Shown here piece by piece: positions 33,078 through 42,947 of a stretch of 64,000 nt of DNA. Source of the stretch: Lysobacter helvus (GTDB lineage: Bacteria; Pseudomonadota; Gammaproteobacteria; Xanthomonadales; Xanthomonadaceae); contig NZ_AP024546.1 of assembly GCF_018406645.1 (NCBI RefSeq), forward strand, positions 1,612,001 to 1,676,000, given 5' to 3'. The first letter of the stretch is position 1. Each line of letters opens with the position of its first letter. The position numbers were made by a program, and so were the translations under genes. Under the pieces are notes generated by a model. It saw only the letters and a program-made list of their open reading frames with translations. It was not told the DNA's origin and did no database searches.

Positions 33078-34397
33078 TTACTGCGACTTGAGTTGGACGG
33101 CGGGCGTCACCTGGCACGCATGCCAGGCGGGCACGAGCCCGGCGAGCACGCTGGCGATGACGGCCAGCGCGAACGTAGCGAGGAACATGGTCGGATCCAG
33201 GTGCGCGAGGTCCGCGTAACCGACCGGCTGCTGGCGCACGGCCCACAGGCCGAGCATCGCAAGGCCCAGGCCCAGCACGCCGCCGGCAAGACCGACCGTG
33301 CCGGCTTCCACCAGGCACTGCGCGAAGATCGCGCGGCGCGAGGCACCGAGCGCGCGACGCACGCCGATTTCACCGGAGCGACGCAGGAACTTGGCGAGCA
33401 GCAGGCCGACCGTGTTGAGCAGGCACACCGCAAGGAAGCCGAAGGCGAGCCACACCTGCAGGCGCACGTCGCTCGGGACGACATTCCTGAAGTCCAGCCA
33501 CTCCATCACGTTGCGCAGGCGCACGTTGGTCGGACGCGCGTAGCGGCCCGCGGCGTGCTGGTTGTCGGAATAGTTGGTGAGGTAGCGCTTGTACGCCTCG
33601 GCCTTTTCCGGCGTGTCCAGCTGCACCCAGTACTGCATCCAGGTGCACGGTGCGTTGACGCCGGTTTCGCCTTCCGGATCGTCCTCGCCATCCTTGTGGT
33701 CGTCCCAGCAGTCCATCGAACCGTTGCGGCCCATCTTGAGGTCGCGCGACGTGGTGAAGGGCAGGTAGATCTGTTCGGCTTCGCCGTAGCGATCGGAGTT
33801 GAGGTCGTAGAACTTCGGCTTCGGGCGGAAGTCCTCCATCACGCCGACGACGCGGAAGTCGGTGCCGTCCATGCGCAGGGTCTTGCCAACCGCCTGCACG
33901 GTGCCGTACAGCTTTTCGGCGAGCTTGCGCGTGATCACCGCCACGCGGTCGTGCGCGTCGTCCTGCGCCTTGTTCCAGCCGCTGCCGGCGAGGAAGGGCG
34001 GCTCGAACATCGGGAAGAAGTCCGCCGAGGTGTAGCGCGCATCGAGCGCGAAGGGTTCCAGGCCCGCGCGCTCGGGTTGCACGGCCACGCCGCCGCCGGT
34101 CATCAGCGCCTGGCGATCGCCCTTGGCTTCGCGCAGCAGCTGTTCGGCGTCGTAGCGCGTCACCTGGTCGTCGGGTTCCTCGCCCGGGGTGTAGCCGTCC
34201 ATGCTTTGCGGATCCAGCTGCGGGATGAAGAGCTTCGCGCTCTTCTGCGGGATCGGATCGCCCGACAGCACGTGGAAGACGGTGAGCGTGGTCATGCTGG
34301 CGCCGATGCCCAGCGCGATCGCCAGCACCATCAGCGCGGTGAGCACGCGATTGCGCCGGAAACTGCGCAACGCGAGGTCGAAGTAGTAGGCGAACAT
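33078..34397 (-). CDS. MacB-like ABC transporter permease (first copy)
   Basis: A 439-residue FtsX/MacB-type permease with the same topology as its neighbour: N-terminal helix (about 16-40), periplasmic domain (45-320) and three C-terminal helices. The marker RRSGEIGVRRALGASRRAI is intact. The two copies are clearly related in design but diverged, so they probably form a heterodimer. It ends 11 bases before the second permease and starts 12 bases after the ATPase gene, all in one operon. Confidence 0.87.
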   Translation of the reverse strand: MFAYYFDLALRSFRRNRVLTALMVLAIALGIGASMTTLTVFHVLSGDPIPQKSAKLFIPQLDPQSMDGYTPGEEPDDQVTRYDAEQLLREAKGDRQALMTGGGVAVQPERAGLEPFALDARYTSADFFPMFEPPFLAGSGWNKAQDDAHDRVAVITRKLAEKLYGTVQAVGKTLRMDGTDFRVVGVMEDFRPKPKFYDLNSDRYGEAEQIYLPFTTSRDLKMGRNGSMDCWDDHKDGEDDPEGETGVNAPCTWMQYWVQLDTPEKAEAYKRYLTNYSDNQHAAGRYARPTNVRLRNVMEWLDFRNVVPSDVRLQVWLAFGFLAVCLLNTVGLLLAKFLRRSGEIGVRRALGASRRAIFAQCLVEAGTVGLAGGVLGLGLAMLGLWAVRQQPVGYADLAHLDPTMFLATFALAVIASVLAGLVPAWHACQVTPAVQLKSQ

Positions 34398-34409
34398 GGC
34401 GTTGCCTCC

Positions 34410-35126
34410 TCAGGATTCGGCGAGCGAGGCCGCGGCCACGCGGATCAGGCTCGGTTCGACCGACAGGTCGGTGGCCATGCCGTCGACGATGTGCACGTTG
34501 CGCTGCGCGCGCGCGGCCAGTTCCGGATCGTGCGTGACCATCACGATCGTGGTGCCGGCGGCGTTGATTTCCTCGAGCAGCTCGAGCACGCCGCGCGCCA
34601 TCTGCGAATCCAGGTTGCCCGTGGGTTCGTCGGCGAGCAGCAGGCGCGGCGTGCCGGCGAGCGCACGCGCGATGGCCGCGCGCTGCTGCTGGCCGCCCGA
34701 GAGTTCGGCGGGGAAGTGCTTCATGCGCGACCCCAGGCCCACGCGGCCCAGCGCATCTTCGATGCGCTTCTTGCGCTCGGCGGCGTTCATGCCGCGGTAG
34801 CGCAGCGGGACGTCGACGTTGTCGAACAGGTTGAGGTCGGGGATGAGGTTGAAGCTCTGGAAGATGAAGCCGATCTTCTGGTTGCGCAGCTTGGAGCGCG
34901 CGTCGTCCGACAGGCCGCTCACGTCTTCGCCATCCAGGTGGTATTCGCCGCCGGTGAAGGATTCCAGCAGGCCGGCGATGTTGAGGAACGTCGTCTTGCC
35001 CGAGCCCGAGGGGCCGGTGACGGCGACGAACTCGCCTTCGCGCACATGCAGGTCGAGCGAACGCAGCGCGTGGGTTTCGACGAGTTCGGTGCGGTAGACC
35101 TTGGTGACCTGGCGCATGTCGAGCAT
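34410..35126 (-). CDS. MacB/LolD-type ABC transporter ATPase
   Basis: A 238-residue ATPase of the lipoprotein/macrolide export type. Walker A is GPSGSGKTT (near 38-46), the signature LSGGQQQRAAIARAL, Walker B LLLADEPTGNLDS and the switch His in VTHDPE. The block QSFNLIPDLNLFDNV is characteristic of the MacB/LolD subfamily. It powers the two permeases that follow. A membrane-fusion adaptor gene precedes it, which points to an envelope-spanning pump. Confidence 0.92.
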   Translation of the reverse strand: MLDMRQVTKVYRTELVETHALRSLDLHVREGEFVAVTGPSGSGKTTFLNIAGLLESFTGGEYHLDGEDVSGLSDDARSKLRNQKIGFIFQSFNLIPDLNLFDNVDVPLRYRGMNAAERKKRIEDALGRVGLGSRMKHFPAELSGGQQQRAAIARALAGTPRLLLADEPTGNLDSQMARGVLELLEEINAAGTTIVMVTHDPELAARAQRNVHIVDGMATDLSVEPSLIRVAAASLAES

Positions 35127-35204
35127 GACGGTGTTCCTTCTGACGGATTCGGATTTGGTGGAAGCGGGGATCGGGATGCTTGGGGGAGGAAAAACGTTGC
35201 GTCG

Positions 35205-36503
35205 TTAGTGGATGGAGATGCGTTCCGCGTCGCCGAACTGGTCGCTGCCGGAGACCACGATGCGGTCGCCTTCCTTGACGCCGTCGAGCAGTTCCACCGC
35301 GCTCAGGCTGCTGGTGCCGACGCGCACCGGACGCTTGATGGCGGTGTCGCCGTCCATGACCCATGCGCTGCGGCCGCCGCCTTCGTCGACGAACGGACCG
35401 CGTTCGACCTGCAGCACGTTCTTGCGCGTGTCCATCACGATGCGCGCGGACAGGCGCTGGTTCTGGCGCAGGCCCGGCGGCTGCTTGCCGGCGAAGCGCA
35501 GGCGCGCAGTGACTTCGCCATTCACGACTTCCGGCGACACGGCGGCTACCTGCGCGGCGAACGGATCGCCGCCCGCGTTGCGGATCTGCGCGGGCATGCC
35601 GATGCCGAGGTCGCGCGCGAAGCTTTCCGGCACCTTGATCTCGACTTCGAACTCGGACAGGTCGACGACGCTCAGCACCGGCGCGTTCTGCGCGACGTTG
35701 GCGCGCTGCGCCACCTGCACCTGGCCCACCTGGCCATCGAACGGCGCACGCAGCGTGAGGCGCGCGACCTGGCGCTGCAGTTCCACCACGACCGCGCGCT
35801 GGCGATCGGCGAGCAGCTTCTTGTTGCGCGTATCCAGGCCCGCGCCCTGGCCCGTCAGCGAGAGATCGCTCTTCGCATGCGACAGGCCGATGTCGGCCTT
35901 CTTCAGCGAGTCCTGCGCGCGCGCCACGTCGACCTGCGCGACGGCGCCGCCTTCGTAGGCCTTCTGGTTGCGCTCGAGGTCGCGCACCGCGGCCTGGCGA
36001 TCGATGTTGGCCTGGTCGAGCAGCTTGCGGGCGTTGGCGCGCGCGAGTTCCGCATCCAGGCCGGCGCGGCTGGCTTCGGCTTCCAGGCTGGCGAGCGTGG
36101 CTTCTTCCTGCGCGAGCTGGCTCCGCAATTCGGGGCTGTCGATCTCGGCGAGCGGCTGGTCCTTGGTGACCTTGTCGCCGGCAACGACTTTCAGCGTGAC
36201 CGTGCCGCCCGCGATCGCGTACAGCACCGGGCTGTTGGCGGCGATGACGCGACCGTCGGCGGAGATGTCGCGCACGAGGTCGCCGCGCGTGACTTCCGCG
36301 ATGCGCACGCGTGACGAATCGACCGAGCGGTTGCCGGCGCTCCAGCCGGTGGCGACCCAGCCGATCATCAGCAGCAGGCCGACGCCGGCGGCGCCGCCGA
36401 TGAGCCACGACTTCTTCAGCGGCGGCAGGCGGCGGCCGGTGGACGACGACGCGGGGGGCGGGGAGAGGGGACGATCCTGTCCGGAGGTGTCGCGGATGCT
36501 CAT
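35205..36503 (-). CDS. Membrane-fusion/efflux adaptor protein (MacA-like)
   Basis: A 432-residue periplasmic adaptor anchored by one N-terminal helix (about 33-52, [20 protein letters not shown]). A lipoyl/barrel-sandwich domain flanks a long coiled-coil hairpin (about 118-230, Ala/Glu/Gln-rich), then beta-barrel and membrane-proximal domains follow. [18 protein letters not shown] and [15 protein letters not shown] are typical. It would join the ABC permeases to an outer membrane channel, which is not encoded here. The start at 36503 lacks a good ribosome site. It is the first gene of the ABC operon. Confidence 0.85.
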
Positions 36504-36602
36504 GGGGCGGGTCGGGCTCGCAAAGGGCACTACCCACAAGGAAGCACGGTTCGTGCCAGCTGCAAGGCCTTGATTTGCAAGGGCACGTCCGCATCTGTCC
36601 GG

Positions 36603-38543: not shown

Positions 38544-38558
38544 CGCGAGCGCGTTTGC

Positions 38559-40895
38559 TCACGCGGTGAAAAAGGGGAAATGGGCGCCGGAAGGGTCGTC
38601 CAGTTCGGCGGCGAGGATCGCAGTCCCGATCTCGCCCTTGTACAGGCTGTGAGCCGTCAACTTTGCCGATCCGGACGCTGCGATGGCACGGTTTGCAAGA
38701 TCGCGCGCCGCATCGCGCCATTCCGCGGACGGCTCGCTGCGGTGCATGTCCAGCAACGCGTAGGCTTGGCCGGTCGTCCCGCAGCACAACTGCCCGACGG
38801 CATGCGGATCGGAAGCGGCATGGCGCGCCGCGCCGCGCGCCAGCGCCTTGTAGTCCTCATCGCCGAATGCGCGCCATGCGGCGAGCCAGAGGTGCACGTA
38901 GCCAGCCGATCCATGACACCAGCCCGTCCAGAAGGCCGAGCGTTCCGCAGATCCGGCGCCCCGCGGCCAGCGCAAAGCGTTTAGCCCCCAGGGCTGCGCG
39001 TAGCCCGCCAATGCATCGCACGCCTCGCGCACGCCAGCGAGCGAACATTGATCCTGTGCCGTATCCCAGCGGAGCGTGGCGTAAAGGATTCCCGCCCAAC
39101 CGTGTGCGATGCCGAAGTAGGAAGGTCCCTTGGAGTCACCGGGAAGCGCGTCGCGCAGGGCGCGCCAGAGCGATCTACGCAATTCGCCACCTCGGCCATC
39201 TAGCGTGGTGGGTACGGGCAATGCGTTGCGCACGAGCTGTTCGCGCAAATTCGCGCAGCCTAGAAGGACACTTGCAATCCCCACGGTAGCGTCAAGTCCC
39301 TGAGCCGGCTGGTGGGTGGACGCGATGAACGCTTCGATCGCCACGCGGAGTGCATTGCGATCCCGTCGCGCGATCGCCACGTACGCAGCGACGGTGTGCG
39401 GACCGCCATGCGCATGTAGCGGCGATGCAAGGCCCACCGTGCGCTGCGTGAGATCGAGGTCCGCGCTTTCGAAGGCGGTGGGCGTATGCGATTCCCGCAC
39501 GGCCCGGCACGCCCACGCATCGGCGAGCGCCAACAAGCGCGGATCTTCGCGACGCAACGCAACGCGCAAGTGCATCAGCGCAATCCCGGCGGCGCCAAAC
39601 GCTACCGAGGCCGTGGCGTCGCGAGGCCACGGTCCTTCCAGCAGCGGACTGTCCCAGTCGTATCGTTTCAGGATGCTGTCGATGAACGCACGCGATTCGT
39701 CGTCCCCCGTGACGGCGGCATCGGTCAGGGCCGATTCGCCCGCGCATGTCGCCAAGCCTTCCAGCGCGCATGCGAATGCATGCAGGTCGTCGAAGCGCTC
39801 AGCCGGATCCTTGTTCAGTGCTCGCGCGAATATCGCATCGGCGTCTCGTCGAAAATCGACCCCGCCCAAGCCCACCCCGATCGGCGGCGTCGTCGCGATT
39901 TCCTCCCAGGCGCGCTGCTGGTCGATCGACAACGCGATCGGGAATTTGTCGAAGAGCAAACGGTACACGAGCACGGCCAAGGCATATTGTTCGCTACGAA
40001 ATGTGGCGGCCGGTGGCGGCGCACCGGCTAGCTTGGCCTGCGCGTACTCCGGTTCGAAATAGAGCGCATTTCCTCCGCGAGGGACTGTTCCGGCGTGCGC
40101 CGACACCACGCGCGCCAGTCCGAAATCGAGAATGGTCGCCATGCCATCAGCATCGACCAGGACGTTGCCCGCATGAATGTCGCCATGGACGATGTCTCGA
40201 TCGTGCAACGCGGCGCAGGCGCGGAGGATCGCAACGCCTAAGGTGACGCGCGCAGGCAGCGAGGCCTCCTTTGCCCAGTGCAGCGGATCTCGGCCCTCGA
40301 TCCATTCCAGTCGCAGGAAGTCGCGACCCTCCCAAGTGCCCGCTTCGATCAGTCTCGGCACGCAGCAGCCGTCGGCATGCGCCAGCATTGCGCGCTCGCG
40401 GTCGAATGCCGCATTCCGATCTACGCCTGGACGGGCGATCTTCAATGCTGCCGTGCCGCCCCCGTCCGATCCCGTGCAATAAACCTCAACGTCTTCCAGC
40501 GACTGCACGCAATGCAACACGTCGAATGCACCGCCGCGCGACAGGGTCGGAGCGAGTGCGTTGGCACCGGACTCTCCGGGGGCAACCAGCACCCCCTCTC
40601 GCCTGCACTGCCGAAGCAGGGGATAGGCCTCCATCAGGACTTGCCTCGGATCGAGCGCGTGGCGCAGCGCGAAGTCGACAATGGCATCCGCCACCGTGGT
40701 TGGGGTGCCGAACGCATTGAGCAGTTCGGCGCCCGCCGCATCGAGCGTTCGGGATGTCGCGCGGCTCCGGACTCGGCTCTGCACGCTGTGTGCGTCCTCG
40801 GCCAGTTGGTCGCGCACGCTGGGGTCGAGCGCGGACACCGGCGTGACCCGGACGTCGGGGTGAAGGACCAGCGCTTCGGCCAACGACTCACGCAT
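38559..40895 (-). CDS. Protein kinase-LanC fusion (lanthionine synthetase-like)
   Basis: A 778-residue protein. Residues 1-120 are unassigned. A Ser/Thr kinase domain spans about 125-385: Lys152 in AALKIA, catalytic loop HGDIHAGN (237-244, Gly instead of Arg in HRD) and DFG at 257-259. A LanC-type cyclase spans about 425-778: GxxG repeats, GIAHGWAG (595-602), zinc-site C660 (WCHGSAG), then C704-C705 (CCGTTG) and LYKGEIG (751-757). The CHG His of NisC is replaced by Cys, giving a three-Cys site as in CCG-type LanM enzymes. No separate lyase domain is visible. The ATG at 40895 overlaps the preceding gene by eight bases. Confidence 0.85.
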   Translation of the reverse strand: MRESLAEALVLHPDVRVTPVSALDPSVRDQLAEDAHSVQSRVRSRATSRTLDAAGAELLNAFGTPTTVADAIVDFALRHALDPRQVLMEAYPLLRQCRREGVLVAPGESGANALAPTLSRGGAFDVLHCVQSLEDVEVYCTGSDGGGTAALKIARPGVDRNAAFDRERAMLAHADGCCVPRLIEAGTWEGRDFLRLEWIEGRDPLHWAKEASLPARVTLGVAILRACAALHDRDIVHGDIHAGNVLVDADGMATILDFGLARVVSAHAGTVPRGGNALYFEPEYAQAKLAGAPPPAATFRSEQYALAVLVYRLLFDKFPIALSIDQQRAWEEIATTPPIGVGLGGVDFRRDADAIFARALNKDPAERFDDLHAFACALEGLATCAGESALTDAAVTGDDESRAFIDSILKRYDWDSPLLEGPWPRDATASVAFGAAGIALMHLRVALRREDPRLLALADAWACRAVRESHTPTAFESADLDLTQRTVGLASPLHAHGGPHTVAAYVAIARRDRNALRVAIEAFIASTHQPAQGLDATVGIASVLLGCANLREQLVRNALPVPTTLDGRGGELRRSLWRALRDALPGDSKGPSYFGIAHGWAGILYATLRWDTAQDQCSLAGVREACDALAGYAQPWGLNALRWPRGAGSAERSAFWTGWCHGSAGYVHLWLAAWRAFGDEDYKALARGAARHAASDPHAVGQLCCGTTGQAYALLDMHRSEPSAEWRDAARDLANRAIAASGSAKLTAHSLYKGEIGTAILAAELDDPSGAHFPFFTA

Positions 40896-41988
40896 GAGCG
40901 GGATGGACCCCCGGGTCGAGGGGCGCCCACGTGGTCGTGTCGACGCCCTCGAGCCGCAGGCGCTCCAGCGCGAATTGCAGCGGCGATTCGGCCAGGCGGG
41001 CGCCACCGCACAAGGTCACGGCAAGACGATCGGTGATCCATCGACGCCAGCTGGGACCTTGCCAAGGAAGGCGCGCGTCATCCCGGGGTGGGTCTGCTCC
41101 CCAGGACAGAACGCCACGCGATTCCAGCGCCGCCGTGAAGGGAACGCCATGCGCAGGCAGCGTTGCAACGATCGGCGACAACGCGGCGCACAACTCCTCG
41201 AGCGCCTTTCGATCCGGGAGATAGACCACGCATTTGTCGGGCCTAAGTAGCTGCTCGGTGTCCGACCCGATCTTGAAGCCACACACCGGCAGCGCATCGA
41301 ACACCTTCATCAATCGTTCGAAGACCTCGACGAAAGCAGACGGCATCGGGCTGACATATGCTTTGCAGCGCGCGGGCGGGGCCCCTCGGCGTGAGAAATA
41401 GCGCCAGTATTCGGTCGTCGACGTGGACCACTCCAGCGGCGGCGCGAGTCGCCAGATTCCCGCGCGTTCGGCTGCCTCGCCGAGCGACGAAACGATCTCC
41501 GGCGTCTGCGGCAGCCGGAAGTAGTCGTACAGGCGGGAGGACAACACCAGCGGATCGTGCAGGCGCAACGCGGCCGCGTATCGAAGCGCATCCAGCGACA
41601 GGCGCCCGATGACGCCTTCGCCGACGAGATTTGCGTCCGGGCGTTCGATGGGACACCACGCGGCACCACCAACGAACCCGCGCTCGGTCTCGATCTCGAT
41701 GATGTGGTCCAGCACGAGGCGTGCGACTGCGGCGTTGGCGACACCTTCGTCCGGATCGAGCAGGCATCGCGGCAGCGCGCCGGGCGTGCGTAGCGACAGC
41801 CACAGCAGTGCGGTGCGCAGGCAGACGGCCTTCATGTCTTCGCCGTCGCGCGCTGGCTTCAGGACACCGAAACACTCAGGATCATTGCGCAACCCTGCGA
41901 GGGTGCGCTGCTCGGTCGTCGCCATGCGCTCGAACTGCACGAGTTCGAAGGCGGCGCTCGTGCGGAACGTGGCGTCCAGCAGATTCAA
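40888..41988 (-). CDS. Conserved hypothetical, possible HopA1-like lyase partner
   Basis: A 366-residue soluble protein without signal or membrane helices. An N-terminal helical half precedes a mixed alpha/beta half. The stretch around residues 225-275 (CKAYVSPMPSAFVEVFERL, then VCGFKIGSDTEQLLRPDKC and VVYLPDR) recalls the Lys/Arg pattern of HopA1-type proteins, which serve as phospho-Ser/Thr lyases in class V lanthipeptide systems. This match is by eye only. The start is TTG at 41988 and overlaps the previous stop by four bases (TTGA); the next ATG is at codon 22. The overlaps bind it into one operon with the kinase-LanC gene. Confidence 0.6.
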   Translation of the reverse strand: MNLLDATFRTSAAFELVQFERMATTEQRTLAGLRNDPECFGVLKPARDGEDMKAVCLRTALLWLSLRTPGALPRCLLDPDEGVANAAVARLVLDHIIEIETERGFVGGAAWCPIERPDANLVGEGVIGRLSLDALRYAAALRLHDPLVLSSRLYDYFRLPQTPEIVSSLGEAAERAGIWRLAPPLEWSTSTTEYWRYFSRRGAPPARCKAYVSPMPSAFVEVFERLMKVFDALPVCGFKIGSDTEQLLRPDKCVVYLPDRKALEELCAALSPIVATLPAHGVPFTAALESRGVLSWGADPPRDDARLPWQGPSWRRWITDRLAVTLCGGARLAESPLQFALERLRLEGVDTTTWAPLDPGVHPAHA

Positions 41989-42713
41989 CGCTTCTGTTCG
42001 CCTGACAGTGCACGGACGCGCTCAAGCCGGGCGATCGCATCCTGCAGCGCCGCTCGCAACGCGGTGATCTCCGCGCTCGTGGTCGGCGCGCGCGCCGCGC
42101 CATTCACACCGGTGGCGATGGTGACGTGGCCGAGCAACGCCTGGAGCTCGAAGCGCTCGCGCTCTTCCATTGGATCGAAATCTTCCCTGGTCGACGCGTT
42201 TGTGCAACCGGTCGCCCCCGAGCAGCCCGCGACGCACGTACAGCCCGGGCAACCCGAGTCGGCGGCTGTGTCGAAAGGTTTCAGGACGCTGATCAACAGA
42301 TCGCGGACGCGGAACATGCCGGCGGGCGGAATCACCGTTACCTCAGGCTTGTCGGCCTGCACGGGCTTGAGGGCGTCGACTTCCTTCAGTGTTGCCTGCA
42401 GCCGCTCGATGAGGGCATCGGATTCCTGGAGCGAACGCGGCCGCAGGGTGGCGCGTTCACGGTGGCGCGCGCGAACCCGAACGAGCGCCTGCTCGAGGAG
42501 AGCTTCGAGTTTCACGAGTTCGGCGGGATCCTCGAACTGCGGCGGGCAGTGTTCGCTGAAGTCGGAGCGTTGGTTGCTGCAGCCTCCGGGACAATCGCTG
42601 TACTGGTTCGTACACCCGTTGCAGTGCGTGTCGGGCGAACAATTGCCGCACTCGTTGATGTCGAGCTTCGCGCCGGGGATCAGGCTGACGATGAGATTGT
42701 TGACCTTGAACAT
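41985..42713 (-). CDS. Duplicated Cys-rich protein, candidate RiPP precursor
   Basis: A 242-residue protein made of two similar modules. Each begins with a short hydrophobic leader-like stretch (MFKVNNLIVSLIP at 1; MFRVRDLLISVLKP at 133), then a Cys/Gly/Ser/Thr-rich segment (22-56 with seven Cys; 155-170 with five Cys) and a Glu/Leu/Ala-rich helix. Blocks such as CTNQYSDCPGGCSN and CTCVAGCSGATGCTN have Ser/Thr and Cys spaced as in lanthipeptide cores. No signal peptide is seen. The ATG at 42713 has GAGGG upstream; a start at 42746 lacks one. It is the first gene of the operon, so it is a likely substrate of the enzymes downstream. A metal-binding role is the main alternative. Confidence 0.65.
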   Translation of the reverse strand: MFKVNNLIVSLIPGAKLDINECGNCSPDTHCNGCTNQYSDCPGGCSNQRSDFSEHCPPQFEDPAELVKLEALLEQALVRVRARHRERATLRPRSLQESDALIERLQATLKEVDALKPVQADKPEVTVIPPAGMFRVRDLLISVLKPFDTAADSGCPGCTCVAGCSGATGCTNASTREDFDPMEERERFELQALLGHVTIATGVNGAARAPTTSAEITALRAALQDAIARLERVRALSGEQKR

Positions 42714-42909
42714 GGCGCCCTCGCGTGCGAGTGATCTCGCATGCAAAGGAGCACGGCTCGCGGCGCGCGGGCCGGTCAGCGGGTGGCAGTGAACGTCGGT
42801 ATCGGAACGCTACCCTCGATGCGACTGGACGGCGCCGCAAAGAGGGTTCGGCCCGTCGGGGAGACCGCAAGTGGCGGATTGACGTGAATCTGACTCACGT
42901 CGTGAACGG

Positions 42910-42941
42910 CCGTGGGCGCGGCCTTATTGCCGCGCCCACGG
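42910..42941. terminator. Hairpin between btuB and the Cys-rich gene
   Basis: A perfect 12-bp stem (CCGTGGGCGCGG / CCGCGCCCACGG) with an 8-base loop. It follows the btuB stop on the minus strand, but no T-run is visible there; a terminator or stabilising hairpin. Confidence 0.6.
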
Positions 42942-42947
42942 TCTTGT

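Follow-up and report, generated by a model that had tools for sequence, protein, structure and literature searches.

A probable lanthipeptide synthetase system joining a class IV-like kinase-cyclase fusion to a separate class V-like lyase in Lysobacter helvus

Lanthipeptide classes are defined by the way in which kinase, lyase and cyclase are combined. In classes III and IV the three activities reside in one synthetase, and class V uses a separate kinase together with a HopA1 lyase (PMC10604976, PMC9486802), with a LanC-containing subgroup termed class Vb (PMC12328550). Here we describe a three-gene unit at positions 38559–42713 of a 64,000-nt stretch of Lysobacter helvus (contig NZ_AP024546.1), in the following referred to as the window. 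The unit encodes a Cys-rich putative precursor, a 366-residue lyase candidate and a fusion of a PqqD-like domain, a Ser/Thr kinase and a LanC cyclase. We consider it probable, at roughly 80%, that this operon constitutes a lanthipeptide synthetase system of new architecture, in which a class IV-like kinase-cyclase is paired with a class V-like lyase. Its arrangement is absent from the descriptions that we compared, and it is not described in the open-access literature searched, which leaves out most subscription papers and preprints.

A preliminary description of this DNA had proposed three overlapping minus-strand genes, a duplicated Cys-rich protein, a protein with HopA1-like features and a kinase-LanC fusion, and had recommended a synteny check. 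The gene layout was confirmed at its proposed coordinates, with overlaps of 4 bases between the precursor and lyase genes and of 8 bases (ATGCGTGA) between the lyase and fusion genes, which suggests translational coupling of the partners. The lyase gene begins with TTG, and the N-terminus encoded from this start aligns with two homologues. Searching partial genome samples for relatives with the lyase candidate as query, we found 10 further loci carrying all three genes, giving 11 including the window. In 9 of these 10, precursor, lyase and fusion follow each other on one strand as in the window; the exception is Cupriavidus, whose fusion gene is nearby on the opposite strand. The combination of a LanC-fused kinase, a separate HopA1/LanY-type lyase and a precursor of the type seen in ribosomally synthesised and post-translationally modified peptides (RiPPs) is thereby upheld by sequence at 11 loci.

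For the fusion, the earlier reading stood. A Pfam scan of the protein without its first 4 residues yielded LANC_like at E 1e-21 and Pkinase at E 4e-14. The former match covers positions 6–348 of the 350 model positions, as expected for a full-length cyclase, and the window kinase reaches 53 bits with PF00069 and 35 bits with APH, both above the cut-offs. The kinase residues K152, E167, D239, N244 and D257 (Lys, Glu, catalytic Asp, Asn and the Asp of DFG) are intact in all 11 fusions, and so are H598 and the zinc ligands C660, C704 and C705 (CCG motif) of the LanC domain, the zinc motif being given as Cys-Cys-His/Cys in a review (PMC10676316). Among NCBIfam models, LanL (NF038150) ranked first for each of four fusions (E 4e-37 for that of the window), with best matches that start at position 190–240 of the 851 model positions and reach 128–151 bits against a cut-off of 650. 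Since LanL matches first, and from position 190–240 onwards, the kinase and cyclase appear class IV-like, with the lyase part of LanL left unmatched.

The HopA1 label needed testing, because no curated model recognises the 366-residue protein: neither Pfam nor NCBIfam yielded a match at E ≤ 1. A permissive tblastn search (E ≤ 10) with half of the window lyase returned five plasmid records, one of them containing a Streptomyces HopA1 protein at E 7. The gene of this protein immediately follows lxmK in a class V cluster, and the protein matches PF17914 (HopA1) at E 9e-42. By BLASTP, the window lyase aligned with the Streptomyces LanY at E 2e-6 over 118 residues; this value is not independent, because the LanY protein was chosen by similarity, and the profile comparison was therefore redone without it. 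For that comparison we aligned nine LanY/HopA1 proteins from 33 plasmid records matching Streptomyces LanY, setting aside five oyster-pathogen records as well as near-identical or unannotated ones. The alignment of 10 lyases matched this set by hhalign over 142–143 columns with a probability of 58 and E 1e-4, and, when cut to its first 396 columns, with a score of 45.5, a probability of 76 and E 2.3e-5, the maximum of 200 column shuffles being 22.2. Without Streptomyces LanY the score was 38.2 (E 2.7e-4, probability 42) against a shuffle maximum of 22.5. Reduced to its four most distant members (Arthrobacter, Nostoc, Tolypothrix, Deinococcus), the set still scored 37.0 against 24.8.

Residues K209, Y211, K239, R249, D251 and Y256 are invariant in the 10 aligned lyases, window included. 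The alignment pairs K209 with an Arg of LanY, K239 with Lys, R249 with Arg and Y256 with Tyr; CaoY has R187, K219, R229 and Y236 at these places, and mutagenesis showed that the first three are important (PMC9486802). The K-10-R-7-Y spacing of the lyases equals the K219/R229/Y236 spacing given for CaoY there. It arises in 3.6e-4 of random placements of the 54 invariant residues, and in 3.5e-5 when a K/R 28–35 residues upstream is included.

Some observations weigh against the assignment. PF17914 was undetected in 4 of 4 lyases scanned, a permissive tblastn search (E ≤ 10) with half of the Paenibacillus lyase returned six plasmid records and no HopA1 protein among them, and the AlphaFold model of the lyase, built from a three-sequence alignment, is of low confidence (predicted local distance difference test score, pLDDT, 36), with neither HopA1 nor SpvC appearing in the 50 of 571 Foldseek rows listed for it and no Foldseek match at E ≤ 0.001. 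Profile searching of the PDB with the lyase gave unrelated rows only, at E 0.45 and above. PF17914 had no match in the window genome at E ≤ 0.001, and none in 375 Bacteroidota genomes or in one Streptomyces plasmid. A below-cut-off NdhM row for the Cupriavidus lyase (E 0.006) was taken as chance, so that no library family is credible for these lyases. Taken with the profile scores, the data support remote homology of the 366-residue protein to class V LanY/HopA1 lyases: the HopA1-like features noted earlier thus lack a match in the domain libraries and reappear as remote homology. A lack of structural similarity to lyases in this protein was one half of what, by the preliminary description, would refute its idea; at the level of sequence, profile-profile comparison detects similarity.

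The duplication within the Cys-rich protein was likewise borne out, as copy 1 aligned to copy 2 with a score of 73 (shuffled mean 26.5, sd 4.8; none of 2000 shuffles as high). All 12 Cys lie within the two predicted core segments, and the protein has no NCBIfam family at E ≤ 1. To compare precursors among the eight loci of the Dyadobacter soli family, we set leader, core and tail boundaries ourselves: a 13-residue leader is 100% identical, cores share 65% identity on average (minimum 27%) and tails 87% (minimum 77%). The core of one locus, L019, is only 27–31% identical to the others, its synthetase being 79–84.5% identical. The contrast between leader, core and tail within this family rests largely on L019, because without it core identity averages 77% against 88% for the tail; the remaining cores are then not hypervariable, a point that counts against the lanthipeptide reading. 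The conserved leader and more variable core correspond to the pattern of a RiPP precursor. Between genera, precursors share a recognisable layout and leader motif only. A leader-like strand, MFRxxDLxxxV, precedes each core, with two copies in the window precursor and three in that of Paenibacillus; in Cupriavidus the motif is weaker (score 14, against 11 at the next-best place). All 11 loci pair the enzymes with a Cys-rich protein that has a leader-like start, and at each of the 10 outside the window the lyase gene has a precursor-like gene upstream of it. The number and spacing of core Cys vary between genera and in L019.

The preliminary description had overlooked the N-terminal domain of the fusion. 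Comparing it by hhalign with 18 PqqD sequences (from 21 loci, three short or cut loci being excluded) gave an ungapped alignment of 53 columns with a score of 26.6, where the maximum of 200 shuffles was 18.0. Other lines of evidence speak less favourably: PF05402 (PqqD) matched only the window's domain among the 10 N-terminal domains, below cut-off at E 0.013–0.016; profile searching of the PDB with the domain returned no PqqD, its best row being a ribosomal protein at E 0.03; and the AlphaFold model from a three-sequence alignment is of low confidence (pLDDT 49). Foldseek with this model gave no match at E ≤ 0.001; the PqqD structure 5SXY ranked 10th (E 3.0, 51 columns), and its root-mean-square deviation of 2.3 was the lowest among the 50 rows listed. 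In Cupriavidus, the domain is also fused to a 2-oxoglutarate oxygenase (72 of 106 residues identical), and the oxygenase gene shares 4 bases with the lyase gene. Being common to two unrelated enzymes of one cluster, the domain would fit a putative docking role. On this moderate evidence we regard the PqqD-like domain as a probable leader-binding element. No such domain was identifiable in classes II–V according to PMC10604976; as far as the descriptions compared go, no earlier kinase-type lanthionine synthetase would have a recognisable leader-binding domain.

In the proposed mechanism, the PqqD-like domain would bind the short leader strand, upon which the kinase domain, with its intact catalytic residues, would phosphorylate Ser/Thr in the Cys-rich core. 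The separate LanY-type lyase, remotely homologous to known enzymes, would then β-eliminate the phosphate to leave dehydroalanine or dehydrobutyrine, and LanC, at an intact three-Cys zinc site, would close (methyl)lanthionine rings by the addition of Cys thiols. The unit encodes neither leader removal nor export, for which general host enzymes may serve.

Not all LanC-like proteins are ring formers, and LanCL proteins act in detoxification or repair by thiol addition. The peptides might accordingly be dehydrated with LanC adding glutathione or another free thiol, or with rings arising spontaneously, so that no defined lanthipeptide results. The flanks, in which we recognised by eye neither exporter nor protease, would suit such a role. 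Against it stand the Cys-rich precursor with its leader-like start at every locus, the Cys and Ser/Thr counts of the window cores (7 and 7, 5 and 8) and the zinc site intact in 11 of 11 fusions, and we regard this explanation as improbable.

The unit, as a putative lanthipeptide system, encodes what defines lanthipeptide clusters in general, namely dehydration machinery and a LanC-type cyclase beside a Ser/Thr/Cys precursor. Like class IV LanL (NF038150), it combines a kinase followed by a zinc-type LanC in one protein; unlike LanL, which has an N-terminal lyase, the fusion has its PqqD-like domain there and the lyase is encoded separately. Class III LanKC unites lyase, kinase and cyclase chemistry in one system, as the unit would; LanKC, however, is one protein without zinc ligands (PMC10604976), whereas the unit has the zinc Cys and a lyase apart. 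Class VI LanKCb of streptococci also holds kinase and cyclase in one protein, but there that protein has truncated cyclase and lyase domains (review PMC10676316), in contrast to the full-length cyclase and stand-alone lyase found here.

Class V LanK/LanY (cacaoidin CaoKY, lexapeptide LxmKY) shares with the unit a separate, remotely homologous lyase with the same K, R and Y spacing, and a kinase and lyase that serve one precursor. Of the HopA1/LanY features, a PF17914 match above cut-off is missing, and homology as well as the K/R, K, R and Y of CaoY are found. One could thus view the unit as an ordinary class V cluster whose kinase merely happens to be LanC-fused, the more so as class V with LanC exists (class Vb, PMC12328550), as a HopA1-LanC fusion occurs in Deinococcus, and as the window kinase passes the cut-off for APH, the Pfam family given for LanK. 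LanK is separate, though, and given as PF01636 (PMC10604976), whereas the unit's kinase is LanC-fused and fits PF00069 better (53 bits), and its protein matches LanL first. The three-gene unit moreover is without LanD, LanX and F420 oxidoreductase, its precursor is different and without an NCBIfam family, PF17914 does not see its lyase, and its fusion bears a PqqD-like domain, of which none was identifiable in classes II–V according to PMC10604976. We hold ordinary class V membership to be very unlikely. The unit, by its predicted domains, lacks a defining feature of each of classes III–VI and combines features of IV and V. It is real and conserved, and probably represents a known type of pathway in a new arrangement.

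A cluster on a plasmid of Deinococcus sp. QL22 (L055, 5451–8968) encodes the same three activities in two proteins: an APH-type kinase gene overlaps a HopA1-LanC fusion gene, followed by genes for an S8 protease and an LLM-class oxidoreductase. There the lyase is fused to the cyclase, whereas the unit fuses the kinase to it. Together, the two arrangements suggest that kinase, lyase and cyclase are exchangeable modules. The earlier statement that class V enzymes are all separate accordingly needs amending, as HopA1-type systems are sometimes fused, and its term 'intermediate' describes how the unit is arranged, with no claim on evolutionary order.

Alternatively, the Cys-rich protein might bind metal or contain disulfides, with the kinase-LanC fusion and the 366-residue protein regulating it by phosphorylation without elimination. 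This explanation draws on the CxxC-rich window cores, which could bind metal and so count against a lanthipeptide, and on the presence of a serine/threonine kinase domain. It is highly improbable given the variation in core Cys number and spacing noted above for the genera and for L019, and given that none of the 10 aligned lyases departs from the LanY-like catalytic residues; the LanC zinc site, moreover, would be left without evident role.

Going beyond the assignment as a lanthipeptide synthetase system, we think it somewhat probable that the unit represents a separate lanthionine synthetase class, in which a fusion of RiPP recognition element, kinase and zinc cyclase works with a stand-alone LanY-type lyase. 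Some hosts would have multi-core precursors, each core lying between a leader strand of its own and a helical tail. The recognition domain would be a docking module common to several enzymes, which in Cupriavidus also steers a 2-oxoglutarate oxygenase to the precursor, and the unit, being rare and patchily distributed, would spread between phyla, partly on plasmids.

The coordinates of the unit and its predicted segments are collected in Table 1.

Table 1 Genes, domains and precursor segments of the three-gene unit (window positions)
Feature	Position	Strand	Basis and remarks
Precursor coding sequence	41985..42713	(-)	ATG start, 242 aa, two leader-core-tail units
Separate phospho-Ser/Thr lyase candidate, LanY/HopA1-like	40888..41988	(-)	TTG start, 366 aa
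PqqD-like - kinase - LanC synthetase (fusion)	38559..40895	(-)	ATG start, 778 aa
N-terminal PqqD-like domain, probable RiPP recognition element, residues 1-115	40551..40895	(-)	Profile alignment, sub-threshold Pfam
Ser/Thr kinase domain, about residues 120-400 (our bounds; Pfam 144-335)	39696..40538	(-)	PF00069
LanC cyclase domain, residues 430-776	38568..39608	(-)	PF05147
Putative lyase catalytic domain, residues 207-352	40933..41370	(-)	hhalign against LanY/HopA1 proteins; invariance in 10 sequences
Leader strand 1, MFKVNNLIVSLI	42678..42713	(-)	Second-best precursor match to the invariant D. soli family leader
Core 1, 7 Cys + 7 Ser/Thr	42528..42677	(-)	Boundaries inferred
Tail/linker 1, helix-rich by eye	42318..42527	(-)	Aligned with homologue tails (low identity); helix inferred
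Leader strand 2, MFRVRDLLISVL	42282..42317	(-)	Best precursor match to the invariant D. soli family leader
Core 2, 5 Cys + 8 Ser/Thr	42162..42281	(-)	Boundaries inferred
Tail 2, helix-rich by eye	41988..42161	(-)	Homologue tail alignment; helix inferred

The unit is conserved, but rare. Eight of the 10 further loci belong to the D. soli family (Dyadobacter sp. 50-39, D. soli and six further species), and the other two lie on plasmids, one from Paenibacillus peoriae and one from Cupriavidus oxalaticus. Within the D. soli family, 7 of 200 genomes contain the unit, D. soli included; 1 of 395 Bacteroidota genomes, again D. soli, and 2 of 72,556 plasmid records do so. None of the other 148 family, 368 class and 397 phylum genomes sampled around the window genome contains it (overlapping samples, window genome excluded; the phylum sample did not happen to include the Cupriavidus case), and the lyase was not found in the four congeners sampled. 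A second hit among the family genomes (G121, 21 bits) was dismissed as chance, as it lies in frame inside an open reading frame that we take to be threonine dehydratase-like. With the Paenibacillus lyase as query, none of 50,697 phage records held the unit; a phage origin was rejected, the lyase having no relatives in phage records by that query or in viral contigs. A class I lanthipeptide cluster has been reported in a Dyadobacter and is apparently not this unit (PMC12584681).

The three genes have a third-position GC content of 0.74–0.79, lower than the 0.88 and 0.91 of their btuB-like and glmS neighbours, which is compatible with acquisition from elsewhere. The glmS–btuB interval (38544–42947) seems to be a variable locus just downstream of glmS, because the two congeners for which both flanks were fetched hold different genes there (surface-protein- and subtilase-like by eye). 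A promoter scan was uninformative. Across the loci, flanks are partly common to three (L017, L020, L021) and otherwise different, and by eye no protease or dedicated exporter recurs in them, a point against the lanthipeptide reading. The lack of both in the window, already remarked upon, holds. Beyond glmS, at 33078–36572, lie genes named by eye as ABC permease, ATPase and HlyD-type adaptor; we rejected them as a dedicated exporter because they are present, 81–93% identical, in a congener without the operon.

The Cupriavidus oxalaticus plasmid cluster (L008, 4339–13458) also encodes a LanB dehydratase, a cupin/JmjC-like protein and the PqqD-like-2-oxoglutarate oxygenase fusion. With LanB beside the unit, glutamylation-type and phosphorylation-type dehydration may both act on one precursor in this host.

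Its minimal three-gene size and a changeable core under a fixed leader make the unit attractive for peptide engineering. The precursor on the Paenibacillus peoriae plasmid (L009, 8032–8784) consists of three near-identical leader-core-helix repeats, with a core of about ASANDCGITCLASCGLFSVGG, and offers a simple test substrate.

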